This document shows, piece by piece, positions 2,276 to 54,614 of a DNA stretch of 64,000 bases. Position 1 is the first letter of the stretch, and each line of letters starts with the position of its first letter. This DNA comes from Paraflavitalea soli (lineage in GTDB: Bacteria > Bacteroidota > Bacteroidia > Chitinophagales > Chitinophagaceae). The notes under the pieces are model-generated. The model was given only the letters and a program-made list of their open reading frames with translations. It was not told the DNA's origin and did no database searches. The position numbers were made by a program, and so were the translations under genes. The stretch covers positions 8,188,546-8,252,545 of the forward strand of contig NZ_CP032157.1 of the NCBI RefSeq assembly GCF_003555545.1, given 5' to 3'.

Positions 2276-3010
2276 ATGTTGGTTAAATCGCAGGTCAAAT
2301 ATATTCAAAGTTTAAGCCAGAAAAAATCAAGAGATGAAGAAGGCGTATTTATCGCAGAAGGCCCCAAGTTAATTAACGAACTCTTAAGCACACCCAACGT
2401 ACAGCTAAAGCAGTTGTATGCGGTGCCGGAGTGGATAAGCCAACACCCCCAAATGCAGACTGGTAGCGTTGTTGAGGTCAAAGAGCAGGAGTTGGAACGC
2501 CTGTCTTTTCTCCAGACACCCAACCAGGTGGTAGGCGTTTTTCGTAAGCCCGTATTTCCTAAAATCACCAGTTACCGGGGGCAGCTTTCCCTGATGCTCG
2601 ATGCCATCCAGGACCCCGGCAATCTCGGCACCATCATCCGTTGTGCCGACTGGTTTGGCATCAATACCGTCATTTGCAGCCCGGAATCTGCCGACGTTTT
2701 CAGTCCCAAAGTGGTACAGTCAACCATGGGCAGCATCAGCCGCGTGCAGGTCATATACGAAGATCTGGTCCCCTTTATGGAGCAGCATGCCGGTATCCCT
2801 GCCTATGCAGCTACCCTGCACGGCACCAGTTTGTACGACCTGCAGCCATTGCAGCAAGGCATACTCGTCATTGGTAATGAGTCAAAAGGTATCCGCGAAG
2901 AATTATTGAAACTTTGCCGCCACCGCATCACCATTCCCAGAAAGGGAGAGGCCGAATCCCTGAACGCCGCCGTAGCTACCGGCATCATCCTATCGCATAT
3001 CGTTCGATAG
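2276..3010 (+). CDS. TrmH/SpoU-family RNA 2'-O-methyltransferase
   Basis: A 244-residue SPOUT-class methyltransferase that transfers a methyl group from S-adenosylmethionine to a ribose 2'-OH in rRNA or tRNA. The N-terminal substrate-binding domain has the typical opening KSQVKYIQSL and FIAEGPKLINELL. The SpoU catalytic knot shows motif 1 (DAIQDPGNLGTIIRCADWFG), motif 2 (VIGNESKGI) and motif 3 (IPRKGEAESLNAAVATGI). The ATG at 2276 was chosen because homologues begin with M-L-x-K-S-Q; a TTG at 2237 in the same frame would add 13 residues with no family support. It is divergently transcribed from tamL. The exact modified nucleotide cannot be told from sequence. Its stop codon overlaps the first word of an inverted heptamer repeat. 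Confidence 0.93.
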   Translation: MLVKSQVKYIQSLSQKKSRDEEGVFIAEGPKLINELLSTPNVQLKQLYAVPEWISQHPQMQTGSVVEVKEQELERLSFLQTPNQVVGVFRKPVFPKITSYRGQLSLMLDAIQDPGNLGTIIRCADWFGINTVICSPESADVFSPKVVQSTMGSISRVQVIYEDLVPFMEQHAGIPAYAATLHGTSLYDLQPLQQGILVIGNESKGIREELLKLCRHRITIPRKGEAESLNAAVATGIILSHIVR

Positions 3011-3091
3011 CTACGAGCAAATACAAAGCGATGGGTTTAATGGCTAAAGGCTGTTGGCTCGCAGCTCGAAGCTCGTCGCTCGCAGCTGGTC
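3008..3091. repeat. Family A heptamer element, copy 1 (inverted arms)
   Basis: The right arm at 3054-3088 is five consecutive 7-mers (TTGGCTC, GCAGCTC, GAAGCTC, GTCGCTC, GCAGCTG). The left arm TAGCTACGAGC at 3008-3018 is its inverse and is followed by AAATACAAAGC, a core shared with the other three copies. The element fills the gap between two convergent genes and overlaps the stop codon of the methyltransferase gene. Confidence 0.75.
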
Positions 3092-4324
3092 TTAACTGAA
3101 TCGAATGGCTTTCACCGGCTGTACTTTCTTGACAATGATCGTGGGGATCAGCAGTACCAGGAAGCACACCAGGAAGGTGCCCGCATCTACCAGCACCACA
3201 TGCCACCATACCACGTCTGCTACCGCTTTGGAGATCCAGTAAGCCTCTTCCGGTAATGGAATGAAGCCATATCGTTGTTGCAGCCAGCAGATACCCAATC
3301 CGATCACATTGCCCAGCAGTAAACCAAAAAAGGTAATAAATGTACCATGATACAGGAATACCTGTTGCACAGTTTGGTTGCGGGCGCCCAGCGCTTTCAG
3401 CACACCGATCATGCGCGTGCGTTCCAATACCAGTATCAGCAGGCAGGTGATCAGGTTCAGCGTAGCGATCACGATCATAATGATAAGAACAATAGCGATC
3501 GTTTTATTCTGCAGCGCCAGCCAGTCGAAGATATTCGGATAAATATTCTTGATCGTGGTCGACTTCAGACCAATAGGCAGCTCTTGTACAATGTCCTCAC
3601 TAACCTTGTCCATTTTATTATAATCATGCAGGAATATTTCATAGCCGCCTACCTGGTTGCTGTCCCAGTCATTCAGCCGCTGGATCAGCTTCAGGTCACC
3701 GATCGCAATATGCTTGTCGTAATCCTCAATACCCGTTTTGAAGATACCCGCTACCGTCAGCTTCCTGGGGCGGAAATTGGGATTCCCCCGCTGTATAAAA
3801 TAAATGATCAGTTGATCATTCACCTTCAGGTTAAGCTGCGTAGCCGTATACACCGATAAATTGATCTCATTGCTATAGCCGCTATCCGTAAAATGTATCC
3901 AGCGGCCTTCTACCAGGAAGTTTTGTAAATTGTTGAAATCATAGCTTTTTTCTACCCCTTTCACCAATACCGCCTCAATGGTGGCCGCCGTTTTCAAAAT
4001 GGCATTTTTCGTGGCAAATGCCTGTACCGTTTTGATTTCCGGAACCTTTTTCTTCAGGTGGAGGACCGAATCATTTTTGAGGATGGGCACTTCTTCTGCA
4101 ATCGATACCGCCGTGGCATCAAAGCTCTGCACCCGCACATGCCCCCAGAAACTGAATACTTTCTGGCTGATCGTTTTCTGAAAGCCATTGGCAAAGGCAA
4201 TCGTCAGGATCATAACAGCCACACTGATCACCGTGGCGCCTATCGAAAGGCGTATCACAAACCGGGAAAAGGACCGTTGTTGATTAAAAGCGATACGGCG
4301 GGCTATAAAGGCGGCGATATTCAA
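3092..4324 (-). CDS. LolC/LolE-type ABC transporter permease (FtsX/MacB superfamily)
   Basis: A 410-residue inner-membrane permease of the lipoprotein-releasing (LolCE) type, expected to work with a LolD-like ATPase, which is not in this window. It has one N-terminal membrane segment (IGATVISVAVMILTIAF), a large periplasmic MacB-PCD-like domain, and a C-terminal FtsX domain with three membrane segments, including the motif RTRMIGVLKALGARN. No in-frame ATG lies near the 5' end. The TTG at 4324 gives MNIAAFIARRIAF, which matches how family members begin, so it was preferred over the TTG at 4378 that adds 18 atypical residues. Role in lipoprotein sorting is inferred from family; Bacteroidota carry several FtsX-like permeases. 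Confidence 0.85.
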   Translation of the reverse strand: MNIAAFIARRIAFNQQRSFSRFVIRLSIGATVISVAVMILTIAFANGFQKTISQKVFSFWGHVRVQSFDATAVSIAEEVPILKNDSVLHLKKKVPEIKTVQAFATKNAILKTAATIEAVLVKGVEKSYDFNNLQNFLVEGRWIHFTDSGYSNEINLSVYTATQLNLKVNDQLIIYFIQRGNPNFRPRKLTVAGIFKTGIEDYDKHIAIGDLKLIQRLNDWDSNQVGGYEIFLHDYNKMDKVSEDIVQELPIGLKSTTIKNIYPNIFDWLALQNKTIAIVLIIMIVIATLNLITCLLILVLERTRMIGVLKALGARNQTVQQVFLYHGTFITFFGLLLGNVIGLGICWLQQRYGFIPLPEEAYWISKAVADVVWWHVVLVDAGTFLVCFLVLLIPTIIVKKVQPVKAIRFS

Positions 4325-4415
4325 TCGGCATTGATTTTTCGGTCGTAAAAATAACAGAAAGCAACCATACCATTCCAAAAAGCTGTCTTTTAGAGGATTT
4401 CTATAACTTCAGCAC

Positions 4416-5705
4416 ATGAAACGATGCATTCTATCCTGGTTATTACTGTCGGTTTTCCTGGTACAGCTCCTGCCTGTTCAGGCCCAGATACCCGATGCAG
4501 TCTATTCACCACGAATTAAAACAGTGCTGTTGCACCCTACCGGCAACCAGCTGGGGCCACCCATTATGCAACTCGGCGGTATCGGCTCCCTGGAGCTCCA
4601 TTTCGACGACCTTGATGCCAATGTTAAAAATTACTCCTATACGTTTCAGCTGTGCAATGCCGATTGGACTCCCGCTATTCTCAGCCAGTTTGATTTTATC
4701 AGCGGCTTTTCACAACAGCGCATCAATACCTACCGCGTTTCCTCCATCGCCTTTACCCGTTATACCCATTACCAGGCCGCCTTGCCCGACAGGAATTGCA
4801 TGCCCACCAAATCCGGCAATTATATATTGAAGGTTTTCCTGAATGGCGATACCTCTAAAACCATCTTCACCAAGCGGATGTTGGTATACAGGGAACAGGC
4901 CGCCATTACCGCCCAGGTACAACAGCCATTTAACGGACAGATATTCCGCACCCACCAGAAGATTCAGTTTAAAGTAGCGCTGAATGAAGGGTTGAATGTC
5001 GTCAACCAGTTTCAACAGATCAACGTAGTGATAATGCAAAATTATCGTTGGGACAATGCCGTCTCCAATATCCGCCCATCTTTCTTTTCCAGGAATGTGC
5101 TGGAGTACAATACAGAAAATGATGCTGTTTTTCCTGCTGGAAAGGAGTGGCGTTGGCTCGACCTGCGCAGCTTCCGTTTTCAAAGCGACCGGATTGAGAA
5201 GGTAAAATATGGAAATGGCAGTACCGATGTGATCGTCCGGCCCGATGCCAACAGAAGCAGCCAGCGCTTCAATTTCTTCCGCGATAATAATGGTATGTTC
5301 ACTATCGAGACCACCGAAAGCGTCAATCCCTATTGGCAGGGCGACTATGCTACCGTCAACTTTACTTTTGTGCCGGGCAACAACGTCCCTTTTCCCGATA
5401 AAGATGTATTTATTGTAGGGCAATTGACCAACTACAACCTCAACGATTCGGCTAAAATGGTGTTCAATACAGAGAAAGGAGCCTATGAAAGGTCACTCTT
5501 CCTGAAAATGGGGTACTATGATTATTGTTACGCCACCATCGACCGCAACGATCCAAAGCGCAAAGCCTCTTTTGATTTCACCGAAGGCAATTATTGGGAA
5601 ACCGAAAACAACTATACCATTTTGGTCTATTATCGTCCATTGGGTGGCCGCGCAGATGAATTGGTAGGTCTCACCACTATTAATTCACTCACCAACAGGC
5701 CTTAG
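4416..5705 (+). CDS. Type IX secretion system plug protein (DUF5103 family)
   Basis: A 429-residue protein with a clear signal peptide (cleavage likely after PVQAQ). It matches the DUF5103 family, whose characterised member is the Plug subunit that closes the periplasmic side of the SprA/Sov translocon of the type IX secretion system. Family landmarks visible are FDDLDANVKNYSYTFQLCN with DW, the FDFISGF segment, the Y-THYQAALPD region and a conserved SGNY-L-VF stretch near residue 140. The C-terminal half has the FVVGQL-like motif (here DVFIVGQLTNYNLND), which resembles a carbohydrate-binding-like fold. It is divergent from the LolC/E-type permease. A secreted T9SS substrate (the M43 protease at 29-32 kb) is consistent with an active system. 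Confidence 0.88.
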   Translation: MKRCILSWLLLSVFLVQLLPVQAQIPDAVYSPRIKTVLLHPTGNQLGPPIMQLGGIGSLELHFDDLDANVKNYSYTFQLCNADWTPAILSQFDFISGFSQQRINTYRVSSIAFTRYTHYQAALPDRNCMPTKSGNYILKVFLNGDTSKTIFTKRMLVYREQAAITAQVQQPFNGQIFRTHQKIQFKVALNEGLNVVNQFQQINVVIMQNYRWDNAVSNIRPSFFSRNVLEYNTENDAVFPAGKEWRWLDLRSFRFQSDRIEKVKYGNGSTDVIVRPDANRSSQRFNFFRDNNGMFTIETTESVNPYWQGDYATVNFTFVPGNNVPFPDKDVFIVGQLTNYNLNDSAKMVFNTEKGAYERSLFLKMGYYDYCYATIDRNDPKRKASFDFTEGNYWETENNYTILVYYRPLGGRADELVGLTTINSLTNRP

Positions 5706-5706
5706 C

Positions 5707-5830
5707 AATTATCGAATTATTGATTACTGATTAGTAGTGCCGTCATGAGTTGATTACTGCACAAAACGGTGTGTATTATTGGTTTGATTGTCTCAAATGA
5801 ATAATTAATTAATCAATAATTAGTAATCAA
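5707..5830. repeat. Heptamer repeat with inverted arms (word TGATTAC / TAATCAA)
   Basis: The left arm at 5707-5734 is four 7-mers (AATTATC, GAATTAT, TGATTAC, TGATTAG). The right arm at 5810-5830 is three 7-mers (TAATCAA, TAATTAG, TAATCAA), inverse to the left. About 75 bases of unremarkable sequence separate them. The element lies just after the plug-protein stop codon and just upstream of the SRP RNA promoter. Confidence 0.65.
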
Positions 5831-5854
5831 TGAATGTAATTCGTTGTTTTGCCA

Positions 5855-5862
5855 TATCTTTG
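5855..5862 (+). promoter_or_regulatory. Bacteroidota-type -7 box for the SRP RNA
   Basis: TATCTTTG matches the Bacteroidota -7 consensus TAnnTTTG exactly and ends six bases before the first base of the SRP RNA helix, the spacing expected for a transcription start at about 5868. A matching -33 TTTG is not evident. Confidence 0.65.
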
Positions 5863-5867
5863 CAGCC

Positions 5868-5962
5868 GGCAGGTCTTACACGACCAGCTCCTGCTGAACC
5901 CCCCCAGGACCGGAAGGTAGCAAGGGTAGGCGGTTGTAGCGGTGCGATGTAAGTAATCTGCC
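5868..5962 (+). ncRNA. ffs: Signal recognition particle RNA (small bacterial 4.5S type)
   Basis: A roughly 95-nt RNA carrying the SRP domain IV core: CCAGGACCGGAAGGTAGCA (5904-5922) contains the asymmetric and symmetric loop bases that bind Ffh (M domain). The ends pair as one long hairpin: GGCAG-GT-CTTACA at 5868-5880 with TGTAAG-TAAT-CTGCC at 5949-5962. A T-run (5963 onward) follows immediately, so the molecule ends in its own terminator, and a -7 box sits directly upstream. It acts with Ffh and FtsY in co-translational targeting of membrane proteins. The small form lacking an Alu domain is usual in Bacteroidota. Confidence 0.93.
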
Positions 5963-5980
5963 TTTTTTTCTTTTTTTTAT
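5963..5980 (+). terminator. T-tract terminating the SRP RNA
   Basis: A run of T residues broken by a single C directly follows the closing helix of the SRP RNA, so the RNA's own terminal stem plus this tract form an intrinsic terminator. Confidence 0.7.
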
Positions 5981-6089
5981 CCAAGAGCATGGCCAATGGT
6001 AACCTGCACACATCTTCCGCTCCTGCAAGATCGCTCCCCGTTCAATGGCCATCCGCATGTTCTAATCAACATCTCAAAACTTTAATAGT

Positions 6090-6960: not shown

Positions 6961-7006
6961 AGCCAGTTCCAGCCCAGTCCCAAGCCAGTAGCAAGCCAAT
7001 AGTAAG
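6961..7006. repeat. Degenerate ~11-nt tandem repeat (word AAGCCAGTAGC)
   Basis: Four degenerate units are built on AGCCAGT. The last two, AAGCCAGTAGC at 6982-6992 and AAGCCAATAGT at 6993-7003, are exact 11-nt periods. It lies in the 440-nt gene-free stretch 6821-7259, which otherwise holds a short tandem duplication (7119-7159) and a heptamer array (7205-7249) and no credible gene. Confidence 0.5.
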
Positions 7007-7159: not shown

Positions 7160-7204
7160 TTTCGACCGCAGGGAGAAATCCGCTATCGAAGCAAACGTAT
7201 TCAC

Positions 7205-7249
7205 GATTGCCGACTGCCGATTGCCGCCGATTCACGATTGCCGATTCAC
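7205..7249. repeat. Heptamer array (word GATTGCC / GATTCAC)
   Basis: The order is GATTGCC, GACTGCC, GATTGCC, a 3-nt slip GCC, then GATTCAC, GATTGCC, GATTCAC. Six units share a 7-nt period. The array abuts the 3' end of the minus-strand gene that stops at 7260. Confidence 0.75.
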
Positions 7250-7259
7250 GCCTCCCGCC

Positions 7260-7700
7260 TCAGCTCCCTTTTCGTCCCCGCCGTCGGCCGCCCGGGCTAC
7301 CCGGTAATACCTCCTCCATCGTTTTCAGCCGTTCCAGCGTATCCACCGTTTTCATATAGATCGTTATTTCCTTCCATACCTTGGGATTGCTCTTCAGGGC
7401 CGCTTTAACGGCAACTGTAGCCCCTTTAAACGAGGTATCAACAATCAGGCTATTGCCATCAAACCTGCCGGCAGAAGCCGTAAAATTCAATTCCCGGGCC
7501 GTAAGCGGTTGCCAGCGGCCATCCGTCAGTTTCCCGTCCACATTGATATAATTGTGCACCCCTTTCTTCAGACTGTCTGTGTACAGGTGAAAGTAAATAC
7601 TGTCTACCTGTTGCCCCTGCGCTGCACGGCCACTCAATACCAGTACCCCAAATATGATGTAAAAGAATAATTTCAAGTGTAAAGCTTTGCTTGTTTTCAA
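7260..7700 (-). CDS. Secreted hypothetical protein
   Basis: I do not recognise this protein. The start was placed at the TTG at 7700 because it gives MKTSKALHLKLFFYIIFGVLVLSG, a well-formed signal peptide ending near GRAAQGQQ. The frame stays open upstream to another TTG at 7751. The mature part (about 120 residues) has alternating beta-like segments (VDSIYFHLYTDSLKKG, SLIVDTSFKGATVAVKAAL) and ends in a Gly/Arg-rich basic tail (PGGRRRGRKG). It reads like a small extracytoplasmic domain, possibly immunoglobulin-like, but no family can be named. It is divergent from the AraC-MGMT gene; TATATTTA at 7741-7748 on the minus strand resembles a -7 box. Expression from a TTG start is uncertain. Confidence 0.6.
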   Translation of the reverse strand: MKTSKALHLKLFFYIIFGVLVLSGRAAQGQQVDSIYFHLYTDSLKKGVHNYINVDGKLTDGRWQPLTARELNFTASAGRFDGNSLIVDTSFKGATVAVKAALKSNPKVWKEITIYMKTVDTLERLKTMEEVLPGSPGGRRRGRKGS

Positions 7701-23833: not shown

Positions 23834-23866
23834 AGCAGGTGAGTTTTAAGGGAAGATACGAATTTT

Positions 23867-23907
23867 AAGCTACGAGCCGTGAGCTACGAGCCACGAGCGA
23901 ATACAGC
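23867..23907. repeat. Family A heptamer element, copy 2
   Basis: Five consecutive 7-mers, AAGCTAC, GAGCCGT, GAGCTAC, GAGCCAC and GAGCGAA, run into TACAGC, giving the AATACA core shared with the other family A copies. Only one arm is present here. Confidence 0.75.
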
Positions 23908-23927
23908 TTTTACTTCGATAGCGGATC

Positions 23928-25516: not shown

Positions 25517-25544
25517 ATGTGGGAAGACTTAGAAGTCAAATATA

Positions 25545-25572
25545 GAATACAGAATCCAGAATACGGAATACG
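25545..25572. repeat. Heptamer array (word GAATACG)
   Basis: Four exact 7-nt periods: GAATACA, GAATCCA, GAATACG, GAATACG. Confidence 0.8.
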
Positions 25573-25582
25573 AAAGTTCGAA

Positions 25583-25624
25583 GTCTGAGGTCTGACTTCA
25601 GACTTCTGACCTCTGAACTCTGAC
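25583..25624. repeat. Heptamer array (word TTCTGAC), partly self-complementary
   Basis: Six 7-nt periods: GTCTGAG, GTCTGAC, TTCAGAC, TTCTGAC, CTCTGAA, CTCTGAC. Within it GAAGTCTGA (25580-25588) and TCAGACTTC (25598-25606) are inverted copies able to form a hairpin. It lies ten bases from the GAATACG array but is unrelated to it in sequence. Confidence 0.8.
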
Positions 25625-25635
25625 CTCCTGTTTCG

Positions 25636-41052: not shown

Positions 41053-41070
41053 AAAACAGCTTCGGACTGC

Positions 41071-41150
41071 TAGCTACGAGCTTCGAGCCCCTTTGTATAC
41101 GAAGGGGCTTTTTGTATTTAGCTCGCGGCTCGTAGCTCAAAGCTCGTGGC
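41071..41150. repeat. Family A heptamer element, copy 3 (inverted arms around a terminator)
   Basis: The left arm at 41071-41091 reads TAGCTAC, GAGCTTC, GAGCCCC. The right arm at 41120-41147 reads AGCTCGC, GGCTCGT, AGCTCAA, AGCTCGT. The conserved core appears inverted as TTTTTGTATTTAG just before the right arm. A terminator hairpin occupies the centre. Confidence 0.8.
41086..41113 (+). terminator. Terminator of ribBA
   Basis: AGCCCCTT at 41086-41093 pairs with AAGGGGCT at 41102-41109, followed by a T tract. It sits inside the family A repeat. Confidence 0.8.
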
Positions 41151-41153
41151 TTT

Positions 41154-44100
41154 TTACGGCTTGCCTGCTGTATCTGACTTACTGCTATCCGTTGCAGAGG
41201 TTGCATTGGTAGAATCCTTTACCCGTCTTTCTTCAGCTTTCTCTTTCCTTTTTCGTTCAGTGCGGAAGATATCGCCCAGCCGGTCAAAGTCGTGCCGGTA
41301 ACTGATGCTGGCGCCGGAACGGTTTTGCCGGGCGCCTACGCCGCTCATATAGTTGTAGGAATCCCGGTAGAAGAAGGTTAATACCACTTTACCATCCGCC
41401 CTTACTTTCCATTCGGCTGTGATATCCGGCAGGAATTGCAGGTTCTGCGTAGCCTGTACCTGTTGAGAGCTGAGGCCAAAGTCCAGTGCACTGCCAAAGG
41501 TAAAGGTCAGCCGCTCATCGAGGAAGCTTTTACCAATATTGAAGTTGAGGTTAGTGCGATCGATATTAAGCTTGTTGTTGGAGTTGTCAATAAAGTTCGA
41601 TCCGCTGTACATCTGCGCATTGAAGTTGACCTTGATGCTTTTATCGTTGAATATCTTCTGGAAGATATTAGAGAACTGCCTGCTCAATGTATTGGACAGG
41701 ATGCCCGAGATACTATTGATCACCACTCCTTCAAATGCCAGGTTGGCCAGGTTACCCTGACTATTGGAAGTTGACAAGGGGCCAAAGCTATTGAACACAA
41801 TGAGGAAGGCCACCTGCTTGTTCAATTCATTTTCATCATTCTGGATACGCTGCAGGATGGCCAACGCATCGGCATCATTCTTCAGGGTACTATTTTGTGG
41901 CATTTCTATCTGGAAGCTGATATCGGGCTTCATGAGTTTGTTCTTAAGGGTAGCTACCACTATTACTTCCCCCCGGTACTTCCGTACATTGTTATTGATA
42001 CCACCATTTGTATTAGAACCCGATTGCAGGGAAAACGCATCCAGGCCCAGGTCGCTGAAACGCACGTTCTCGGCTTTGTATTCTGCATCTATCTTGATGG
42101 TAGCTGCATAAGGATCACCCTGCCATTGAATGTAGTTGCCCACATTGGGACGCAGGGTAAACGGCTTGCGCAACACCGACTGGAAATTGAAATTGTAATT
42201 ACCCCTGTCAATATCATAACGGCCTGTAATGGAGAATTCACCATCTGTACGGGCGGTCATTTTAAGGTTGCCATGGCCTACAGCCTGGATCACATCACCG
42301 GTTAGCTCGTCCAGGATCACATTCATCTTGATGTAATTATTGGCCGTTACATCGAGTGTTACACTCAGGTTGCTTTCTTTGAAGGCATCCACTGCTTTCA
42401 TTTCCCTGCCATACACTTTCCAAACAATGTAATCTGTTTCGCCACTTTGTTTGGAGCCGGAACCGGAGCGGATAAACAGCTTGGAACTGTCAGCAGGCTC
42501 GCCCCTGATGTCCATCTTCATGTCTTCCAGCCTGTCCTTCAGGGTCATGTTGACCTTGGCGAACACGGTACCGAAGAAAGGGTCTTTTCCGGTGCCGTCG
42601 GTAGCCAGCACCAGCATTTTATTGCTGTTGATCGCAAAATCAAAATCGAGGTCATCGAAGCCATGGTGTTTTAGGATGCCACGGCTTACGGTGCCGGTAT
42701 TGCCAAATTCATCCCTGATGGTGAAGGAACCGAAATTGATCTGGTCTTCTTTAAAATCAAAAGTAGCAGCCGGTATCTTGTACAATACATTCGTGTAGTT
42801 TACCCGCAGGGCGGCATCGCGCAACTGCACCTTGCCCAGGTATTTCAGGTTGTCGGTAGGGCCGGTGATCCTCAACTGGCCAGTAGCCAGACCGCTAATA
42901 TTCTTAAATACGCCGGAGAGGTATTTCTCCAGTACATTGATCTTGGTATCCTGGAAATTGCCGGTAATATCCAGCGGTGTTTGATTGTCGGCGCTGTCCA
43001 GCAGGTTGTAGAGGCCCTTCATGTCAAATACATAATCCTTATTGTTGGATACCGCTGCAAAGTTTACCGCACCGCTCCGCTGGTTGTAGTTGGCATTCAA
43101 TTGTATTTTGCCCAGGGAGTCATTGTCGAGCCTGAACTGGTCGGCCTCTCCGTTCATCTCCACCTGTATCTTACCAAATGGGTTCATCACATCCACAGTT
43201 GCATTCAACAATCCTTCCAGCCGGGTGGATTTGGTGATATAAGGAGCAAAGTCCCCTATGTTGATCTTCTTCAGGTCTACTTTGATATCGTTGGTATTGC
43301 CAATATCGGAAGGTTGGGTGGTGACGAGTATTTCCTGGTCGCCGCTGTATATTTTCACCCCATCGGCGGTTACCAGCTCTTCACTCAATACCAACTCGCC
43401 GTTCTTCTCTATCACCCAGTTCTTGCCATTCACATCAAAGTGCGATTCATTGAAAACAATGCGTACTCCCTTGGGCATGGTTTGTACCCGGGCCACCACA
43501 TTGGCGGAGTTCAGCGTTTGACTGGCGCTTGTTTTGAGGGTGATATCTGAAATGTCGTTGGCCGAGTGAATGTTGATGGTAGAGCCCGGAAAGTGCAGGC
43601 TGTCGTTGATGTACACATCCGCAATGGAGTTCTCCAATGAAAGGCTGTCCAGGTTACCCGTGCCTTTCAGGGCTACATTGTAAAAGGCGATATTCTTATA
43701 GCTGAACTGGGGCACTTCTGCATTCAGGTCCAGCATATTCTCTTTGGTATTGATACGGCCGGTAACGGTGCTGTAGTTAAAACCATTGAGGTTCTTGTCA
43801 AAAAAGTCGAGGTATTCATCCACCTTCTTGGTAGTGACCACAAAACTGAAGTTCTCATCGTGCTGCATGGTACGCCCTTCGCCGATATAGCTGGGATAGT
43901 ATTTGTGCAGGAAGGTGCGGAAAGAGGAGGGAAGGTCGCGGATGGAAAACTGGCCTACCAGCGCTGCGTCAAATTCATTGCTCAGTACGGTGATGACCTT
44001 ATTGGTCCCCAAAGTTTTGGACTCTATGTTGAGTGAATCAAAAGAGATCCGTTTTCCTTTTTTGAATACCGATGCTTCATACACACGGGCTGTACCGAGG

Positions 44101-46764: not shown

Positions 46765-46794
46765 GATCACCTGTTTGTAACAAAGTTAGGAAGA

Positions 46795-46881
46795 AAGCTT
46801 CGAGCCGCGAGCTGCGAGTCTGTTGCTTCGAATGGCTTCTCTGTATTTAGCTCACAGCTCGTAGCTCGCGGCTCGCAGCTG
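46795..46881. repeat. Family A heptamer element, copy 4 (inverted arms)
   Basis: The left arm at 46795-46822 reads AAGCTTC, GAGCCGC, GAGCTGC, GAGTCTG. The right arm at 46849-46881 reads AGCTCAC, AGCTCGT, AGCTCGC, GGCTCGC, AGCTG. CTGTATTT directly before the right arm is the shared AATACA core on the other strand. Confidence 0.82.
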
Positions 46882-46884
46882 TTT

Positions 46885-48600
46885 TCAGTATCCTGCTGCA
46901 TGATCATCTCCCCGCTTGTCACCTACGGCTTCAAAACTGCCATCGGGCAATACACGGATCACTTCGGTGCGGCCGATAGCGCCACGTACGGTGATCTTAT
47001 AACCCATTTGCTGCAGCTTTTCGCGTACAGCCTGGGGGAAGTCTCTTTCCACCATCACTTCATCGGGTAACCACTGGTGGTGGAATTTGGGTTTGTTCAC
47101 CGCATCATCGGCATTCATATCAAACTCCAGGATGTTGACCAGTGTTTGAAATACAGAAGTGGTAATGGTGGTACCGCCGGGCGTACCTACTACGAGGTAA
47201 GGCTTACCGTTTTTCAGCACGATGGTGGGCGTCATGGAGCTCAACATACGTTTGCCGGGCACAATGGCATTGGCATCGCCGCCTACAGCGCCGTACATAT
47301 TGGGTACGCCGGGTTTTACACTGAAATCGTCCATCTCATTGTTGAGCAGGAATCCGGCGCCGCCTACTACCGTCTTGCTGCCATACCCACCATTGAGGGT
47401 AGTGGTGACGGCTACGGCGTTGCCCTGGCTGTCATATACACTTAAGTGGGTAGTCTCTTCGCTTTCCGGTACGATGCCTGCCTGCACGGCAGTGCTGCTG
47501 CCTGCTTTGTTGGGGTCATAGTCCTTCATTCGTTGTTTGGCATACGCATCACTGGTGAGTGTTTTGATGGGCACTTTGTAGAAGTCCACATCCCCCAGGA
47601 ATTTGGCGCGGTCGGCATAGGCCCTGCGCTCTACTTCGGTCATCAGTTGTACGGATTGTACCGTCTGGAAACCATAGCTCTTGATAGGTTTGTCTTCGAT
47701 CATCTTCATCATCTGGGGCAGTAATACGCCGCCGCTGCTGGGCAGTGGCATGGTCACTACTTTATATCCCTTGTAATCAAAAATGGAAGGCTGTCTGTCC
47801 CGGGCGGCATAGCTCTTCAGGTCATCATACGTGATGATGCCTTTGCCGCGTTGCATTTCTGCTACGATGAGCCGGGCGGTCTCTCCTTCATAAAATCCGG
47901 CCTGTCCGTTATCGCGTATGCGCTTCAACGTGTTGGCCAGGTCTTTCTGTACCAGGGTATCACCGGCTTTCCAGGGACTGGCTTTTACAAAGGCGGGTGT
48001 TACAGTGTTATATTTAATAAAGGCTTCGCGGGAACGGTTCAGGTCGCTGGCCTCATCGGCTGTGATCACAAAGCCTTTTTCGGCCAGGTCGATGGCGGGC
48101 TGTATGAGTTTCCTGAAGGGCAGCTTGCTGTATTTTGCGGCTGCGAACAGGCCGGCCACGGTGCCCGGCACACCCGATGCCAGGTGGCCATTCACGCTGA
48201 GGGCTGTAATGGCATTGCCATTGGCATCGAGGTACATATCGCGGGTGGCAGCGCCGGGCGCCTTCTCGCGGTAATCCAGCGTAACATCTTTGCCATCAGC
48301 CAGATGGGCTACGAGGAAACCACCGCCGCCGATATTGCCGGCAGCGGGATACACAACGGCTAATGTGAGTTGGGTGGTAATAGCGGCATCAATGGCATTG
48401 CCGCCCAGTTTTAATATAGCGAGACCTGCTTCACTGGCGAGTGGATGTGCAGAGACCACGGCGCCATGTGTGCCTGTTGCTTTCTTCTGTACAGTATACT
48501 GGTATGGGTTTACCTGTTTAGGACTTATTATGGCACGGTTGCCACCACAGGCATACAAGCATACAGCTACCAGTAATATATAGGTGTTCTTTTTTCTCAT
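46885..48600 (-). CDS. ggt: Gamma-glutamyltransferase, lipoprotein
   Basis: A 571-residue Ntn-hydrolase that splits gamma-glutamyl bonds (for example glutathione) or transfers the glutamyl group. It is made as a proenzyme that cleaves itself before the catalytic threonine, here the second Thr in ESEETTHLSVYDSQGNAVAV. The N-terminus is a lipoprotein signal with lipobox CLYAC, so it acts in the periplasm or at the surface. Other family blocks are HPLASEAGLAILKLGGNAIDAA, GGGGFLVA and MLSSMTPTIV. It is probably monocistronic or cotranscribed with the DinB-like gene. Confidence 0.95.
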   Translation of the reverse strand: MRKKNTYILLVAVCLYACGGNRAIISPKQVNPYQYTVQKKATGTHGAVVSAHPLASEAGLAILKLGGNAIDAAITTQLTLAVVYPAAGNIGGGGFLVAHLADGKDVTLDYREKAPGAATRDMYLDANGNAITALSVNGHLASGVPGTVAGLFAAAKYSKLPFRKLIQPAIDLAEKGFVITADEASDLNRSREAFIKYNTVTPAFVKASPWKAGDTLVQKDLANTLKRIRDNGQAGFYEGETARLIVAEMQRGKGIITYDDLKSYAARDRQPSIFDYKGYKVVTMPLPSSGGVLLPQMMKMIEDKPIKSYGFQTVQSVQLMTEVERRAYADRAKFLGDVDFYKVPIKTLTSDAYAKQRMKDYDPNKAGSSTAVQAGIVPESEETTHLSVYDSQGNAVAVTTTLNGGYGSKTVVGGAGFLLNNEMDDFSVKPGVPNMYGAVGGDANAIVPGKRMLSSMTPTIVLKNGKPYLVVGTPGGTTITTSVFQTLVNILEFDMNADDAVNKPKFHHQWLPDEVMVERDFPQAVREKLQQMGYKITVRGAIGRTEVIRVLPDGSFEAVGDKRGDDHAAGY

Positions 48601-48723: not shown

Positions 48724-51700
48724 ATGAGAAAATTTATCTACCCAATTCGTGGGGTGAGTGTTCTTACATTCTTTTTACTCACCTTCCTGACAACTTTCGC
48801 TCAAACTACCGGTACTATTCATGGAATTGTAAAAGACGCCAGCGGTAACCCGTTGTCCGGCGCTTCTGTTGCTATAGAAGGACAGAAGGGCGGCGCCATA
48901 ACGGATGCCAGCGGCAGCTATACCCTGCGGGTGCCTTCCGGTTCCTATACCCTCCTGATCAGCTTTGTAGGCCAGGAAACACAACGCTACCAGGTGGTGG
49001 TAGCAGCAGGCAGCACGGTACAACAGGATGCTTCTCTGAAAGTGCTGGCCGACCTCGGCAGTGTGGTCGTCATTGGTTCCCGTTCCCGGCAGCCCCGCAG
49101 TAAACTGTCTACAGCGGTACCGGTGGATGTGATCAGCACCCGGGAAATAAAACAATTTGCACAGGCCGACGTATCGCAGTTGCTCACTTATGCAGCGCCT
49201 TCCTTCCAATCGGCCCGCCAAACGATCTCCGATGGTACAGACCATATCGATCCGGCAGGATTGCGTGGCCTGGGGCCTGATCAAACGCTGGTGCTGGTGA
49301 ATGGCAAGCGCCGGCATACCACGGCCCTGGTCAATATCAATGGCACCGTTGGACGTGGATCAGTAGGCACCGATCTCAATGCTATACCAGCCGCTGCCAT
49401 CGAGCGCATTGAAGTATTGCGCGATGGTGCTGCCGCACAATATGGTTCTGATGCCATTGCCGGTGTGATCAACGTGGTATTGAAGAAAAGCTATAAAGGG
49501 TTTAATATATCCGGTCTGGCCGGACAAAATGTGACCACCATGCCCTATGCGGGTGGTGTTGACATCACCGACGGGCTCAACAGGCAGATCGACTTCAGCG
49601 GAGGGTATGCCTGGAAAAATGGCGCTTATATCAACCTTAGCGGCCAATGGCTGAAACGCGATGGCAGCAACCGCAGCGGGCTCGATAATATCCCCCTCAT
49701 CTATTATGGCAATGCAGGATCATTGCCTCCTGCCGCCGCTATACCGCCCGGGGTTCATCCTACGGATTATTATCGCTGGCTGATAGATAAGGACAAAGCC
49801 TTTGCCGATAGTCGCCAATATGATCGTCGCAATATCGTAGCGGGTAACTCTTCCGCCAACAACCTCGGCGCTTTCCTCAATGCAGGGTTCACCATTCATG
49901 AAAAGGTAGAAGCTTATTTCACTGCAGGCGCTTCACACCGTACAGGTGCTGCCAGTGGCTTTAGCCGCAACCCCAATTCCTGGAGCCAGCAGCCGGTACT
50001 GGAGGATGGACAACGTTATTATTACGACGGCTTCCTGCCACAGATCCATACCACCATCGATGATAAATCGCTGATTGCCGGCGTTAAATTCCCGGTCAGT
50101 GATTGGAGTTTCGATATCAGCAATACCGTGGGTCAGAATACGATCCGCTATGATATCAAGAACACCGGCAATGCTTCATTGCCTGCAAGCAGCCTGGTGC
50201 AAACAGAGTTCTACGCAGGTAAACTCGGCTTTTTGCAGAATACGGTGAACCTGGATGTAACAAGGCAATTGTCCGTAGGTGCCGGCACCTCGCTCAACAT
50301 CGCCTTTGGTGCTGAATACCGCTACGAACAATACAAGATCAATCCGGGTGAATTAAACTCCTGGCAGGACACTTCGGTGAATGGAAGAAGATTCCAGCCC
50401 GAGCCGGTTCCTTCCTATCCCGGTACTTCACTGATCTATACACCGCCGGGTGGGCCCGCAGTGCCGGGTGCGCAGGTGTTTCCGGGTTTCCGTCCTTCTG
50501 ATTCCACCAAGGCCCACCGCAATATCTATGCACTATACCTGGATGGTGAATTGCAGGGAGATAAATTCATACTGGGCGGCGCTGTTCGCTATGAGCGATA
50601 CAAAGAATTTGAAGCCGATTACGACAACCTCAGTGGTAAGATCACCGGTCGTTACAATATCAATAAAGACCTTGCCGTACGTGGTTCGGTGAGCACCGGT
50701 TTCCGCGCGCCTTCCCTGCACCAGCGTTATTTCCAGAATACTTCCACCCAGTTTGTAGGTGGATTGCCTTCTACAGCCTTAACTGCCAATAACTATAATC
50801 CCATCGTAAGGGACGCATTTGGTATCAAGGAATTGAAGCCTGAAACTTCCCTCAGCTTTTCCGGAGGTGTGGTAGGTACGATTGGTAACCACCTCACCTT
50901 TACGGTAGATGCCTACTTCATTAAAATTGATGACCGGATAGTATTGTCTACCCAGTTTGCCCGCAGCAATAACCTGGTCGATTCTATCATGAAGAAGAAC
51001 AATGTACCTGCCTCTGTAAATGCACTGCAATTCTGGACCAATGCCATCAATACGGAAACCAAAGGCATTGATGTGGTGGTAACGGAAAGATTTAAAATGG
51101 GTAAAGGCAATGCTAATTTATCTGTAGCGGCCAACTTCAATGAGAATACGGTAGTAGGTGGGTTGAATACCAATTCTGTGATCGATGATCCGAAGGTAAA
51201 CCCCAGCTGGAACAATCCCAATGCCAATCCGGCCAATGACCTCAGTACCGGCCTGTTCGACCGTCAGCAAAAATCACGTATTGAAGTAGCACAACCCAAG
51301 AGCAAGATCAATATCACGTTCATTTATGACCTGCCCAAGTGGAACTTTATGGCACGCACCGTACGTTTTGGAAAGGTTGAATACATACACAACCTGGACC
51401 CTTACTCCACCAATCCCTCTACAGGCGCTTACTTCAACGATGTAGGACTGGGTACCGATCAAACCTTTGATGCCAAGTGGACTACCGACCTGGTGGTGAC
51501 CTATAAAGTAACACGCGGTCTGAGTCTTACTGTAGGCGCCAATAACCTGTTTGATATTTACCCAGACAGGATATACATTGATCCACGCAATGATCCTGCT
51601 GCCTATTATGCTACACCGGTTGCCGGTGCAAACAAGGCAGCCGGCGGCTACAATGCATCGAGGGATGCCTCCAACAGGGGCCGTTTCCTGTTTCCCGCCA

Positions 51701-51798
51701 ACCAGTTTGGTTTCAATGGCCGCTTCCTGTTTGCCAGGATCAATGTGGATGTGGTTGATCTGGCGAAGACCATCAAAAGCGCCATTCCTAAAAAGTAG
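48724..51798 (+). CDS. TonB-dependent receptor with carboxypeptidase-regulatory-like domain
   Basis: A 1024-residue outer-membrane receptor. A signal peptide (to TTFAQT) precedes a CarboxypepD_reg-like domain (HGIVKDASGNPLSGASVAI). A classical plug follows (DVISTREIKQF, LRGLGPDQTLVLVNGKRR, IERIEVLRDGAAAQYGSDAI) and then a 22-strand barrel with RGSVSTGFRAPSLHQRYF and DAYFIKIDDRIVLS. The plug is of the ligand-uptake type (siderophore, cobalamin or other small molecule) rather than the SusC type, and there is no SusD partner. The ligand is unknown. It is followed by a terminator and an M14 carboxypeptidase gene; it is divergent from ggt. Confidence 0.94.
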   Translation: MRKFIYPIRGVSVLTFFLLTFLTTFAQTTGTIHGIVKDASGNPLSGASVAIEGQKGGAITDASGSYTLRVPSGSYTLLISFVGQETQRYQVVVAAGSTVQQDASLKVLADLGSVVVIGSRSRQPRSKLSTAVPVDVISTREIKQFAQADVSQLLTYAAPSFQSARQTISDGTDHIDPAGLRGLGPDQTLVLVNGKRRHTTALVNINGTVGRGSVGTDLNAIPAAAIERIEVLRDGAAAQYGSDAIAGVINVVLKKSYKGFNISGLAGQNVTTMPYAGGVDITDGLNRQIDFSGGYAWKNGAYINLSGQWLKRDGSNRSGLDNIPLIYYGNAGSLPPAAAIPPGVHPTDYYRWLIDKDKAFADSRQYDRRNIVAGNSSANNLGAFLNAGFTIHEKVEAYFTAGASHRTGAASGFSRNPNSWSQQPVLEDGQRYYYDGFLPQIHTTIDDKSLIAGVKFPVSDWSFDISNTVGQNTIRYDIKNTGNASLPASSLVQTEFYAGKLGFLQNTVNLDVTRQLSVGAGTSLNIAFGAEYRYEQYKINPGELNSWQDTSVNGRRFQPEPVPSYPGTSLIYTPPGGPAVPGAQVFPGFRPSDSTKAHRNIYALYLDGELQGDKFILGGAVRYERYKEFEADYDNLSGKITGRYNINKDLAVRGSVSTGFRAPSLHQRYFQNTSTQFVGGLPSTALTANNYNPIVRDAFGIKELKPETSLSFSGGVVGTIGNHLTFTVDAYFIKIDDRIVLSTQFARSNNLVDSIMKKNNVPASVNALQFWTNAINTETKGIDVVVTERFKMGKGNANLSVAANFNENTVVGGLNTNSVIDDPKVNPSWNNPNANPANDLSTGLFDRQQKSRIEVAQPKSKINITFIYDLPKWNFMARTVRFGKVEYIHNLDPYSTNPSTGAYFNDVGLGTDQTFDAKWTTDLVVTYKVTRGLSLTVGANNLFDIYPDRIYIDPRNDPAAYYATPVAGANKAAGGYNASRDASNRGRFLFPANQFGFNGRFLFARINVDVVDLAKTIKSAIPKK

Positions 51799-51839
51799 TT
51801 AAGTACACTTCTATATTACAGTCACATGAGGAATCTCAG

Positions 51840-51868
51840 GGCATCCCGCACACGGGGATGCCTTTTTT
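51840..51868 (+). terminator. Terminator of the TonB-dependent receptor gene
   Basis: A perfect stem GGCATCCC / GGGATGCC is followed by six T residues. Confidence 0.85.
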
Positions 51869-51873
51869 ATTCC

Positions 51874-51916
51874 GGATGTAGGATTTCAGATCCTCCTAAA
51901 TCCTAAATTCTACATT
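51874..51916. repeat. Family B heptamer element, copy 1 (word TCCTAAA)
   Basis: The left arm is GGATGTA, GGATTTC (51874-51887). The right arm, inverse to it, is TCCTAAA, TCCTAAA, TTCTACA (51894-51914). It lies just after the receptor's terminator. Confidence 0.78.
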
Positions 51917-51956
51917 CAAAATTGTTCCTTATTTTCATGGCTTATACGTACATATC

Positions 51957-54476
51957 ATGAAGAAAGCCCTGGCCTTATGGCTCTTAGTCTCTGCTGCAAT
52001 GATTGGATATACCCAGGTAAAATCGCCCGAACAGTTCCTGGGATACAAGATCGGAACCCGCTATACCCCGCATTACAATGTGGTCAATTATTTTAAGGAA
52101 ATAGCCGCTACGGCTTCCAATATGGTGAAGCTGGAAGAATATGGCCGTACCAATGAGGGCCGCCCCTTATTGCTGGCCTATATCGCTTTGCCCGACAACC
52201 TGGCGCGCCTGGAACAGATCAGGCTCAACAACCTGCGCCTGGCAGGCATAGCCAACGATAAAGCCGCGCCCGATGAAAAAGGACCGGCCATTGTATGGCT
52301 GAGCTACAATGTGCATGGCAATGAAACTTCTTCTTCTGAAGCCGCCATGCTTACCTTGTATGAACTGGTCAACCCGGCCAATGCCAAAACCAAAGAGTGG
52401 CTGAAGAATACAGTGATCATTATTGACCCCTGTATCAATCCCGATGGCCGCGACCGCTATGTCAACTGGTTCAACAGTGTGGTAGGTCTTACGCCCAATG
52501 CACAACCTTTTACACGCGAGCACAGTGAACCCTGGCCCGGGGGGCGCTCCAATCATTACAATTTTGACCTTAACCGCGACTGGGCCTGGCAAACACAGGT
52601 AGAATCGCAACAGCGGCTGGCCAAATACAGCCAGTGGTTACCGCAGATACATGTTGATTACCACGAGCAGGGATACAATGAACCCTATTATTTTGCGCCT
52701 GCTGCTGAACCTTTTCATGAGGTCATTACGCCCTGGCAAAGAGAATTCCAGGTATTGATCGGTAAGAACAATGCGAAATATTTTGATGAGAATGGCTGGT
52801 TGTTCTTCACCAAAGAACGCTTTGATCTTTTCTATCCCAGCTATGGTGATACCTATCCCATTTACCGGGGAGCAATTGGTATGACCTACGAACAAGGCGG
52901 TCATAGCCGTGGCGGCGCAGCTGTGATCAATGAAGATGGCGATACCCTCACACTGTGGGACCGCCTGTACCACCATTTTACCACCGGCATGGCCACTATT
53001 GAAGTGAGCTCACAAAATGCCGGTAAACTGGTGGGTGAGTTTAAGAAGTATTATGACAAGGCGCGTACCTCGCCTCCCGGAGAGTTCAAAGCCTATGTGG
53101 TAAAAGCCGATGCAGGTGATAAACTGACCCGTTTAAAGAAAATGCTCAGCAGGAACGGTATTGACTGGAGTTATGCCAATGCTGCTACCTACACGGGGCT
53201 CAACTATTTTACTGCCAAATCAGAAGCATTTAAAACCGTACAGGGAGATATTGTGATCAATGCCAACCAGCCCAATGCCAACCTGGTCGATGTGTTGTTT
53301 GAAAGAACCTCTAAATTATCCGACTCGGCCACCTATGATATTACCGCCTGGTCATTGCCTTTTGTATACGGGCTCAACACTTATGGTCTCAATGCCTACG
53401 TGACTGCTACTACCAAAGAACTTTCTATTGTAGCGCCGCCGCAAGGGAAGGCTTCGCTGGCTTATGCCGTTCGCTGGAACGGTCTGCACAGCGCCCGTTT
53501 CCTGGCTGAGTTGCTGAAGAAGAAAGTGAAAGTGCGTTTTTCGGAAGAACCTTTTACGGCAGCAGGCGAGCAATTTGAGCGGGGCACCTTGCTCATTGCC
53601 CGTACCAGCAATGCGGCTTTGGGTGAATCGCTGCATACTATTGTAGCGGATGCTTCCACTTTGACCAATGTACATTGCTATGCTATCGGGTCTGGCTATG
53701 TAGAGAAAGGGTTTGACTTCGGCTCCGGCAAAGTGCGCATCATCAATGCACCTAAAGTAACCTTGTTGGCGGGTGATGGAGTTTCTTCCCTCGGTATGGG
53801 TGAAGTATGGCATTTCCTGGAAAAGGAACTGGGTTATCCTGTCAATATAGTATGGACCAGCGACCTGAATGGAAATGTATTGAAGCAAACGGATGTCTTG
53901 ATCCTGCCCGATGGTAATTATCGCCTGTTTGGTGATAAGGCCATGAACGATAACCTGAAGGAATGGGTAAGCAATGGCGGTAAGATCATTGCTATCGAGG
54001 GCGCCGTATCGCAATTGTCAAGGGCTGAATGGGGTATCAAGCAAAAGGAAGACAAAAAAGACGATAAGAAGGATGAGAAGAAAGATGATTACAGCATGCT
54101 GAAGCGGTATGAGAATCGCGAGCGTGACTACCTGCCCGGCTTCAACCCCGGCTCTATTTTCAAGGTGGAACTGGACAATTCTCACCCCCTGGCTTTTGGG
54201 TACGACAATTTCTACTACACCCTCAAGCAGGACGATAATATCTACGAATTTTTCAAAGATGGCAACTGGAATGTAGGGATCATTAAAAAAGACAACCAGG
54301 TGGCTGGATTTGTGGGCGCCAGACTGAAAGAAAAACTGAAGGATGGCGTCTTATTTGGAGTGCAGGATTATGGGAGGGGATCTGTAGTGTACCTGGCTGA
54401 TAATCCGCTGTTCAGGAACTTCTGGGAAAATGGCAAGCTCCTGTTCTGTAATGCGGTATTCTTAGTGGGGCAGTAA
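51957..54476 (+). CDS. Secreted M14-family zinc carboxypeptidase
   Basis: An 839-residue exported metallopeptidase. A signal peptide (KKALALWLLVSAAMIGYTQ) precedes the M14 catalytic domain (about 35-370). Zinc ligands are His and Glu in LSYNVHGNETSSSEA and His in PQIHVDYHEQG; the catalytic Glu is in AIGMTYEQGGHSRGG; NPDGRDRYVNW and NFDLNRDW are substrate-pocket motifs. The C-terminal half is a GATase-like/beta domain interrupted by a very Lys/Asp-rich loop (KEDKKDDKKDEKKDDYS) near residue 700, presumably flexible. It releases C-terminal residues from peptides. It is bracketed by two copies of the same family B repeat. Confidence 0.94.
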   Translation: MKKALALWLLVSAAMIGYTQVKSPEQFLGYKIGTRYTPHYNVVNYFKEIAATASNMVKLEEYGRTNEGRPLLLAYIALPDNLARLEQIRLNNLRLAGIANDKAAPDEKGPAIVWLSYNVHGNETSSSEAAMLTLYELVNPANAKTKEWLKNTVIIIDPCINPDGRDRYVNWFNSVVGLTPNAQPFTREHSEPWPGGRSNHYNFDLNRDWAWQTQVESQQRLAKYSQWLPQIHVDYHEQGYNEPYYFAPAAEPFHEVITPWQREFQVLIGKNNAKYFDENGWLFFTKERFDLFYPSYGDTYPIYRGAIGMTYEQGGHSRGGAAVINEDGDTLTLWDRLYHHFTTGMATIEVSSQNAGKLVGEFKKYYDKARTSPPGEFKAYVVKADAGDKLTRLKKMLSRNGIDWSYANAATYTGLNYFTAKSEAFKTVQGDIVINANQPNANLVDVLFERTSKLSDSATYDITAWSLPFVYGLNTYGLNAYVTATTKELSIVAPPQGKASLAYAVRWNGLHSARFLAELLKKKVKVRFSEEPFTAAGEQFERGTLLIARTSNAALGESLHTIVADASTLTNVHCYAIGSGYVEKGFDFGSGKVRIINAPKVTLLAGDGVSSLGMGEVWHFLEKELGYPVNIVWTSDLNGNVLKQTDVLILPDGNYRLFGDKAMNDNLKEWVSNGGKIIAIEGAVSQLSRAEWGIKQKEDKKDDKKDEKKDDYSMLKRYENRERDYLPGFNPGSIFKVELDNSHPLAFGYDNFYYTLKQDDNIYEFFKDGNWNVGIIKKDNQVAGFVGARLKEKLKDGVLFGVQDYGRGSVVYLADNPLFRNFWENGKLLFCNAVFLVGQ

Positions 54477-54480
54477 TTCC

Positions 54481-54614
54481 GGATGTAGGATGTAGTATTT
54501 AGAATTCTACTACTCTCAGAATTGTACTACGTGGTTCAGGCAGGCTGAAAATGCAGGCAGTTGCCTATGTATTGCGATTTAGAGACAAAGAATCCTAAAT
54601 CCTAAATTCTACAT
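54481..54614. repeat. Family B heptamer element, copy 2 (inverted arms)
   Basis: The left arm is GGATGTA, GGATGTA, GTATTTA (54481-54501). The right arm is TCCTAAA, TCCTAAA, TTCTACA (54593-54613), identical in sequence to the right arm of copy 1. About 90 bases of other sequence separate the arms. Confidence 0.78.

Follow-up and report, generated by a model that had tools for sequence, protein, structure and literature searches.

Seven-nucleotide arrays in the gaps of the window

The window analysed here is a stretch of 64,000 nucleotides from the genome of Paraflavitalea soli (G000; 8,443,189 bp in one contig), and the features in question are tandem arrays with a step of 7 nt that lie in the gaps between its genes, which were called with a simple Markov model. 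A preliminary description of the window had listed such arrays under six unrelated words. Tandem Repeats Finder, run on the window, reported period-7 arrays at 3057, 7204, 7228, 23868, 25539, 25591, 41119, 46796, 46849, 51894/51896, 54481 and 54591, and so agreed at nearly every named place that the arrays are real; at 5707–5830, which had also been called a 7-mer array, it saw only an imperfect 15-nt repeat at 5796–5841. All of the arrays lie between called genes. In form they look like arms, and in the window they come without an open reading frame (ORF) of the IVP protein family, the gene that such arms enclose at four other loci of this genome (L094, L095, L096 and L097, described below).

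Arms with the word GAGCTRC lie at 3048..3093 on the minus strand and at 23857..23904 on the plus strand. The former (array 3057–3087) adjoins the gene at 3092, abutting its stop codon, and is accompanied at 3008–3018 by a short left piece, TAGCTACGAGC (RNA fold of 3008–3091, z −1.4). The same word forms two mini-elements with two arms each, one between convergent genes (left arm 41057..41093, plus; right arm 41114..41154, minus; fold z −4.8) and one with its left arm at 46792..46822 (plus) and its right arm at 46843..46886 (minus; fold z −7.3). Arms with TAGGATG (TCCTAAA) were found at 51891..51922 (minus), where the word is that of the right arm of IVP locus L096, and as a pair at 54474..54507 (plus), starting at the upstream gene's stop codon, and 54590..54617 (minus; AATCCTAAATCCTAAATT). 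An AGAATAC arm at 25535..25577 (plus) has a word identical to that of L094 and is followed at 25579..25628 by a TTCTGAC/GTCAGAA array, itself an inverted pair with no strand assigned (gap fold z −1.5), whose word belongs to no IVP locus of this genome. A TCGGCAR arm (GATTGCC/GATTCAC) at 7195..7260 (minus) has a word identical to that of L097, and its RNA fold shows no stem (z +1.95). A degenerate, inverted AT-rich element, again with no strand assigned, spans 5714..5845 with GAATTATTGATTACTGATTAG on the left and AATTAATTAATCAATAATTAGTAATCAAT on the right (fold z −3.3); by eye, its word resembles those of IVP loci L149 and L151 in two genomes of the same genus. Of the six window elements whose fold was scored, as for the stable hairpin of an intrinsic terminator, three (z −7.3, −4.8 and −3.3) clearly fold better than shuffled sequences and three do not.

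Relatives were compared at two array-bearing gaps of the window. At the gap equivalent to 23834–23927, the lag-7 array was absent in G001, G002, G003, G004 and G006. At 25517–25635, a diverged stretch resembling an array is present in G002, whereas the gap is much longer in G001 and G003 and long in G004 and G006. In this comparison of the window region, arrays were found in other gaps of G002 and G004 and in none of G001, G003 and G006.

Autocorrelation was computed on intergenic DNA of the window and of 20 other 20-kb stretches placed at even intervals along its genome; for the lag statistics, the count of explicit arrays and the comparison between genomes, the own genome is represented by these stretches and the window only. 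Gaps longer than 1200 bp (7 gaps) were excluded here, and gaps longer than 1000 bp in later counts. Identity at lag 7 was 0.2753, against 0.2596 in 20 dinucleotide shuffles (standard deviation (sd) 0.0018; z 8.5), with more peaks at lags 14 and 21, and coding sequence of the same stretches had no lag-7 peak. The excess is present beyond the window as well, and the outcome that would have refuted the preliminary description, no lag-7 excess over dinucleotide shuffles, did not occur. Since lags 3, 4, 9, 11 and 33 were likewise raised by more than 4 sd over the shuffles, lag 7 is not the sole intergenic signal. Lag-7 arrays with a score of at least 12 numbered 14 in 64 kb of gaps, 0 in 10 shuffles and 2 in a six-fold larger amount of coding sequence; the runners-up were lag 14, a harmonic, with 9 arrays and lag 11 with 6. 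The words found at lower score in these gaps include GAGCTRC, AGAATAC, TTAGCTG, TCGGCAR, GGGTTTC, TAGGATG, GTCAGAA and GTGAGAT, and in the whole 8.44-Mb genome GAGCTACGAGCTACGAGC occurs 263 times with at most 2 mismatches, against 5 occurrences of its reversed control. One constant step with changing words, as the preliminary description had put it, is thus borne out, and a single dispersed repeat is ruled out by a step common to many unrelated words. The words are not free, however: they form dispersed families, the arrays come mostly as inverted arms of one element, and step and word are linked to subfamilies of the IVP protein.

The placing of the arrays was counted in 41 stretches of the genome, the window included; twenty of them were partly picked at known GAGC matches, so that the counts of gap type, boundaries, arm pairs and dispersed 12-mers lean towards that word. 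Tandem gaps held an array in 44 of 324 cases, convergent gaps in 16 of 70 and divergent gaps in 4 of 90. Of 79 arrays, 39 lay within 8 nt of a gene boundary (12.5 expected), and the boundaries within 15 nt of an array were 38 stops and 11 starts (of 464 and 504 boundaries). A search with word templates yielded 96 arm-bearing gaps, 62 with one arm, 28 with two and 6 with more, and among 40 pairs of neighbouring arms 27 faced inward (21 of one word family, 6 mixed). Exact palindromy of the arms was rejected by eye, core positions agreeing and variable positions differing; a fixed footprint inside the unit is at best weakly indicated, the two most variable positions being adjacent in 31 of 70 arrays against one third by chance.

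Such a placing could be expected if the arrays served as terminators of the host or as hairpins at mRNA 3' ends, with stems 3' of stop codons being selected by the host: stops outnumber starts, convergent gaps are the richest in arrays and divergent gaps the poorest, and the fold z is −4.8 for one GAGC mini-element and −7.3 for the other. We regard this explanation as highly improbable. The array in gap 23834–23927 is missing from five relatives, the sampled genomes of the genus that lack IVP genes have no arrays, arrays also abut start codons in tandem gaps, and a terminator does not need a 7-nt tandem structure. Transcript ending, which had been proposed as a role of the arrays, is at most a side effect, with arrays abutting starts as well as stops and occurring in only 1 of 9 sampled IVP-less genomes.

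Other repeats share these gaps. A motif resembling repetitive extragenic palindromic (REP) sequences, GCTTCGATAGCGGATTTCTCC, lies beside the TCGGCAR arm at 7172..7192 (minus) and has 71 matches in the genome with at most 3 mismatches (control 0); in 5 of 8 contexts shown for this motif (GCTTCGATAGCGGATYTCTCC) a heptamer array lies directly alongside, as judged by eye. A second series of intergenic arrays has period 11 (window 6963–7006, L018:19440-19493, L022:18140-18384 and L024:8827-8919); it counts 5 arrays in G000, 8 in G002, 8 in G004, 0 in G001 and G003 and 1 in G006, hardly any adjoining IVP genes. Dispersed 12-mers such as AGGGTGAGCCGC and GAGCTTGTCGAA occur in 13 and 8 of 503 gaps of the genome, respectively.

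IVP genes between inverted arms

Two long armed gaps of the genome held ORFs of the IVP family, a family of four-helix-bundle proteins, that the gene caller had missed. In total, G000 has four matches to PF05635, all above the PF05635 cut-off. The four genes score 92.8–120.4 bits against TIGR02436 (cut-off 24) and match, below cut-off, two families named hypothetical protein and, in two of the four, Avd; a profile of 16 IVPs matches the solved structures 2gsc (E 2.5e-33) and 2rld (E 4.7e-31). All four genes are flanked by inverted 7-nt arms, and the words differ from locus to locus: AGAATAC at L094, GAGCTGC at L095, GGATGTA/TAGGATG at L096 and TCGGCAA at L097. Each of these four words recurs in the genome as arrays without an IVP gene. 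Four of the six words in the preliminary description are accounted for by these loci, the fifth, TGATTAC/TAATCAA, resembles the arms of L149 and L151, and for the sixth, TTCTGAC, no IVP partner was found among the loci examined. To the right of the L095 element, a GAGC-type 7-nt array lies inside ORF L023:6778-8313, whose frame stays open. This ORF appears to be a glutamyl-tRNA synthetase gene.

In G003 the L094 site consists of a bare stop codon that is separated from the following ATG by 10 nt, and in G004 a right-arm remnant is all that is present; the L095 site of G004 holds a GAGC-type piece without an IVP gene. We interpret these sites as gene-less relics of IVP elements or as forms derived from such elements.

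Matches to PF05635 were found in 29 of 39 genomes (G000 and 38 relatives), 130 in all. From the own and related genomes, 72 IVP matches were reduced to 58 distinct proteins, and arrays with a score of at least 9 lay upstream of 25 of their genes, downstream of 35 and on both sides of 23, each other lag from 4 to 13 giving at most 6 per side. In 13 of these genomes, 42 of the loci had arrays upstream in 21 cases, downstream in 29 and on both sides in 21, compared with 88 (10.6%), 95 (11.4%) and 22 (2.6%) of 831 other genes of those genomes. The period-7 excess beside IVP genes extends to many phyla. Among the best 80 loci of named genomes, 45 from Bacteroidota and 35 from other groups including cyanobacteria, Chloroflexota, Planctomycetota, Acidobacteriota and Clostridia (assigned by record title, and all counted, some being cut by contig ends), arrays stood upstream of 42, downstream of 49 and on both sides of 34, with lag 8 in second place (9, 10 and 7). 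At 52 full-length loci of this set, 17 were two-sided beside the gene and none at a distance of 1.4 or 2.4 kb, where one-sided arrays numbered 3 and 5, and 1 and 2, respectively. Another set of 27 loci, drawn from six genomes and in part repeating loci of the named set, gave 18 upstream, 18 downstream and 14 on both sides. IVP homologs were also seen on 27 plasmid records, 12 of which are predicted to be conjugative; of the 25 plasmid records among the matches listed, most are from cyanobacteria such as Nostoc and Calothrix.

The arms on the two sides of IVP genes are mostly inverted and matching. Among two-sided loci, 20 of 23 in a first set were inverted (1 direct, 2 unclear), and in a second set scored at 8 or more 28 of 37 were (6 direct, 3 unclear); the loci with direct arms are L172, L192, L196, L203, L219, L236 and L237. 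Word distance from arm to arm was 0.205 within a locus, 0.521 between loci and 0.501 when reverse complementing was left out. The strand that runs 5' to 3' inward is the G-rich one on both sides, with G exceeding C in 56 upstream arms of IVP loci and C exceeding G in 13, the downstream arms giving 69 and 16; the arrays of the own genome show the same bias (23 of 31 left, 32 of 40 right; ties excluded throughout). This polarity would suit a telomerase-like process, in which a polymerase working from a template extends the two 3' ends at a break by 7-nt repeats, the ends then being joined round a spacer. It would also suit such a process that IVP resembles Avd, a reverse transcriptase partner, a match that lies below the curated cut-off and concerns two of the four own proteins (PMC10053308). 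The words, however, differ between loci of one genome, and we give telomerase-like addition little chance of being correct.

Dependence of step and word on the IVP subfamily

Period labels could be given to 98 IVP loci, 79 with period seven, 15 with eight, 2 with six and 2 with nine. On a tree of 90 IVPs, from which the 8 other labelled loci (ambiguous, or of periods 6 and 9) were omitted and in which many forks are unresolved, the period label needs 7 changes, compared with 12.4 when shuffled (0 of 500 shuffles as low). The prediction of period from protein was tested on 30 loci nearest to a period-8 IVP and 30 nearest to a period-7 IVP (395 genomes each). Of the 29 readable loci in the former group, 15 had period 8, none period 7, 13 no period and 1 another; of the 28 in the latter, 18 had period 7, none period 8, 9 no period and 1 another (Fisher 1e-9). 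By genus these are 5 period-8 against 12 period-7 cases, with 10 of the 15 period-8 loci coming from one genus and 5 of the 18 period-7 loci from another. L347, a period-8 candidate, also scores 9.5 at lag 7, and L368, L369 and L373, all of period 7, score 9–11 at lag 8, below their own lag-7 scores. Three genomes, G088, G169 and G363, each carry one period-7 and one period-8 IVP locus. Inverted period-8 arms are seen at L240, L245, L246, L257, L330 and L341.

The word follows the protein more narrowly. Among 20 cross-genus pairs of IVPs with at least 50% identity and different sites, 9 had a common word (permutation mean 1.0; 0 of 5000 permutations as high), and this signal is carried by close pairs only. 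A GTGA core in phase was found at 16 of 21 period-7-arm loci near L172, in 10 genera of 14, and at 13 of 95 other loci. The upstream flank of L172 itself holds a very long, near-perfect heptamer array (GTGAAAC/GTGAATC; score 156), which suggests a recent expansion. These results show that the step, and among close relatives partly the word, depend on the IVP subfamily.

IVP genes and scattered arrays also co-occur by genome. Gaps within 700 bp of an IVP gene were excluded from this comparison, and most stretches taken from IVP-bearing genomes, G000 apart, had an IVP locus at their centre. Away from IVP genes, 13 IVP-bearing genomes had 108 lag-7 arrays in 164.4 kb of gaps, and 9 IVP-less genomes had 2 in 69.7 kb (Mann-Whitney p 1.6e-4). 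In the two same-genus genomes without IVP, G001 and G003, there were 0 arrays in 22.4 kb of gaps.

Two other explanations were weighed. According to the hypothesis of Mrazek 2007, as told in PMC4679880, DNA polymerase slips by 7 nt, and heptamers of any word arise in weakly constrained gaps. Heptamers are reported there, at second hand, to be the most abundant class of long repeats in most genomes, and unit variation within our arrays resembles drift. Neutral slippage would nevertheless have to account for the lack of arrays in the two IVP-less genomes of the same genus; by itself it gives no inverted, paired arms of one word; and it is already strained by periods 7 and 8 at different IVP subfamilies within one genome. 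We consider it very unlikely, and neither host-wide slippage nor plain terminators explain the pattern. Alternatively, the arrays might be the older part, offering the IVP genes no more than a place to land or to shelter, as the few IVP genes (four) and many IVP-less arrays in our sample of the genome would allow. This is unlikely too, if slightly less so: sampled IVP-less genomes are nearly array-free, period and word follow the IVP subfamily even at different sites, and at the L094 site G003 has nothing but a gap of 10 nt, where an element may however have been lost.

A proposed element plan and its known counterparts

We therefore favour as the likely explanation that the arrays are arms of small inverted-repeat elements built round an IVP gene or a short spacer, and the window copies are probably IVP-less relatives with the same words as the gene-bearing elements. 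The plan of such an element would be a 7-nt tandem array, an IVP gene (PF05635) or short spacer, and an inverted 7-nt tandem array. The IVP, a five-fold ring of four-helix bundles in a solved relative (PMC4990558, and a reference title in PMC10053308), would contact the arms or help to copy them in steps of 7 or 8 nt; most likely it binds them in regular steps, as RNA stem or DNA. Stepwise binding or copying would keep the step while the word drifts, and copies without the gene may stay behind or spread in trans. In transcripts the arms could fold into a stem, like 23S rRNA intervening sequences, and by analogy with these the stem may be cut by RNase III. That IVP reads or copies the arms in this way is our inference. 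The preliminary description had guessed at a repeat-bound protein, which agrees with this reading; together with the constant step, its excess beyond the window and the likeness to cyanobacterial repeats, that part of the description stands, so that it is partly supported, whereas the words are not free and termination is at most a side effect.

Several observations weigh against this reading. At the thresholds used, 35 of 58 and 46 of 80 IVP loci lack two-sided arms, and 7 of 60 two-sided loci have direct ones. In the own genome, 62 of 96 arm-bearing gaps hold a single arm, 13 of 40 neighbouring pairs do not face inward, and the folds of 3 of 6 window elements are unremarkable (z −1.5, −1.4 and +1.95). 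The GTCAGA and TTAGC families have no IVP gene in the own genome, and G004 has 51 GTCAGA-type matches (control 10), yet its two IVPs carry other words. Over all pairs, protein and word distance show no significant rank correlation (r −0.06), and the word-sharing pairs are mutually dependent. The genome comparison has two exceptions, G014, whose 7 IVP genes go with 0 arrays in the 5.8 kb of gaps sampled elsewhere, and the IVP-less G022 with 2 arrays. IVP orthologs of the genus share their site in the pairs compared, so that movement was not directly observed and no transposition within the genus was seen. The low ratio of nonsynonymous to synonymous substitution (omega) in five IVP pairs, 0.02–0.13, speaks in favour, but the values are rough because synonymous divergence (dS) exceeds 1.7 in four of the five, and a sixth pair was saturated. 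Finally, we know of no nuclease or transposase activity of IVP.

The closest known system is the rRNA intervening sequence with an S23/IVP ORF (Coxiella, Leptospira), which PMC4990558 calls selfish and describes as cut out of RNA by RNase III. There, too, an IVP-family ORF lies between complementary, stem-forming flanks, and all four own IVP loci fit this description. Our elements differ in lying between protein genes, in having arms made of 7- or 8-nt tandem arrays and in their many IVP-less copies. L094 and L095 are flanked by protein ORFs that have homologs in related genomes, and the two loci do not lie inside a 16S or 23S rRNA gene (no rRNA search was made). IVP is described as a relative of Avd, a protein that partners the reverse transcriptase in diversity-generating retroelements (PMC10053308).

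Among dispersed heptamers, the short tandemly repeated repetitive (STRR) sequences of filamentous cyanobacteria (GGGGA(T/C)T in Nostoc, three words in one Calothrix strain; PMC4692102) are alike in being tandem 7-nt arrays in intergenic DNA, as had been pointed out. In Anabaena sp. UHCC 0204, AATCCCCAATCCCCAGT lies downstream at an IVP locus (L285), and the genome of this strain holds 34 copies of CCCCARTCCCCART (control 0); the locus has one arm only and a short IVP match, and a second cyanobacterium, G040, has CCCCARTCCCCART 0 times and the control 8 times. The STRR words differ from ours, and CCCCA(A/G)T, the complement of GGGGA(T/C)T, is not among the period-7 units that Tandem Repeats Finder reported in the window. 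TAACTGA repeats of Beggiatoaceae, cyanobacteria and five Bacteroidetes, for which a post-transcriptional regulator was proposed, are likewise intergenic 7-nt direct repeats near gene boundaries with a patchy distribution, beside which some Bacteroidetes have other heptamers; they consist of a single word, and the available part of PMC4679880 makes no mention of IVP. GGGAATC of Xanthomonas also forms 7-nt arrays in close inverted pairs (70 in Xcc, 75 in Xac) that are discussed as G-quadruplex formers and reported to be generally not tied to mobile elements (PMC4692102). X. campestris encodes a solved IVP-family protein, XCC0516. Miniature inverted-repeat transposable elements (MITEs) are small intergenic inverted-repeat elements whose non-coding copies exist beside gene-bearing ones, and in the same manner our word families occur both at IVP loci and in IVP-less gaps. 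Unlike MITEs, the four own IVP genes match TIGR02436 and no transposase, and the ends share a period and a drifting word, not a fixed sequence. No target-site duplication was evident at the two sites compared, whose empty counterparts come from species about 75–85% identical in the flanks.

An IVP ORF between complementary arms is already known from rRNA; ends defined by a step, the spread over phyla and the tie to dispersed heptamer repeats appear to be new. We found no literature linking IVP proteins with heptanucleotide arrays, judging from titles and the beginnings of abstracts, with subscription journals largely outside the coverage. It is conceivable, if somewhat short of probable, that IVP genes define a class of selfish elements in many phyla whose ends are set by a step and only loosely by sequence. 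In that case, a large share of the bacterial heptanucleotide repeats that lack an explanation, STRR, TAACTGA and GGGAATC among them, would go back to its decayed or gene-less copies, and the intervening sequences would represent a special case, members that came to lie in rRNA. The heptanucleotide repeats of cyanobacteria, Xanthomonas and Beggiatoaceae have had separate explanations, and the preference for seven has been blamed on DNA polymerase. IVP subfamilies with arms of period 7 or 8, even within one genome, make the question of why seven answerable by a binding assay, and they provide a genomic context and a candidate substrate for a family so far familiar from fragmented 23S rRNA and from its kinship with Avd.

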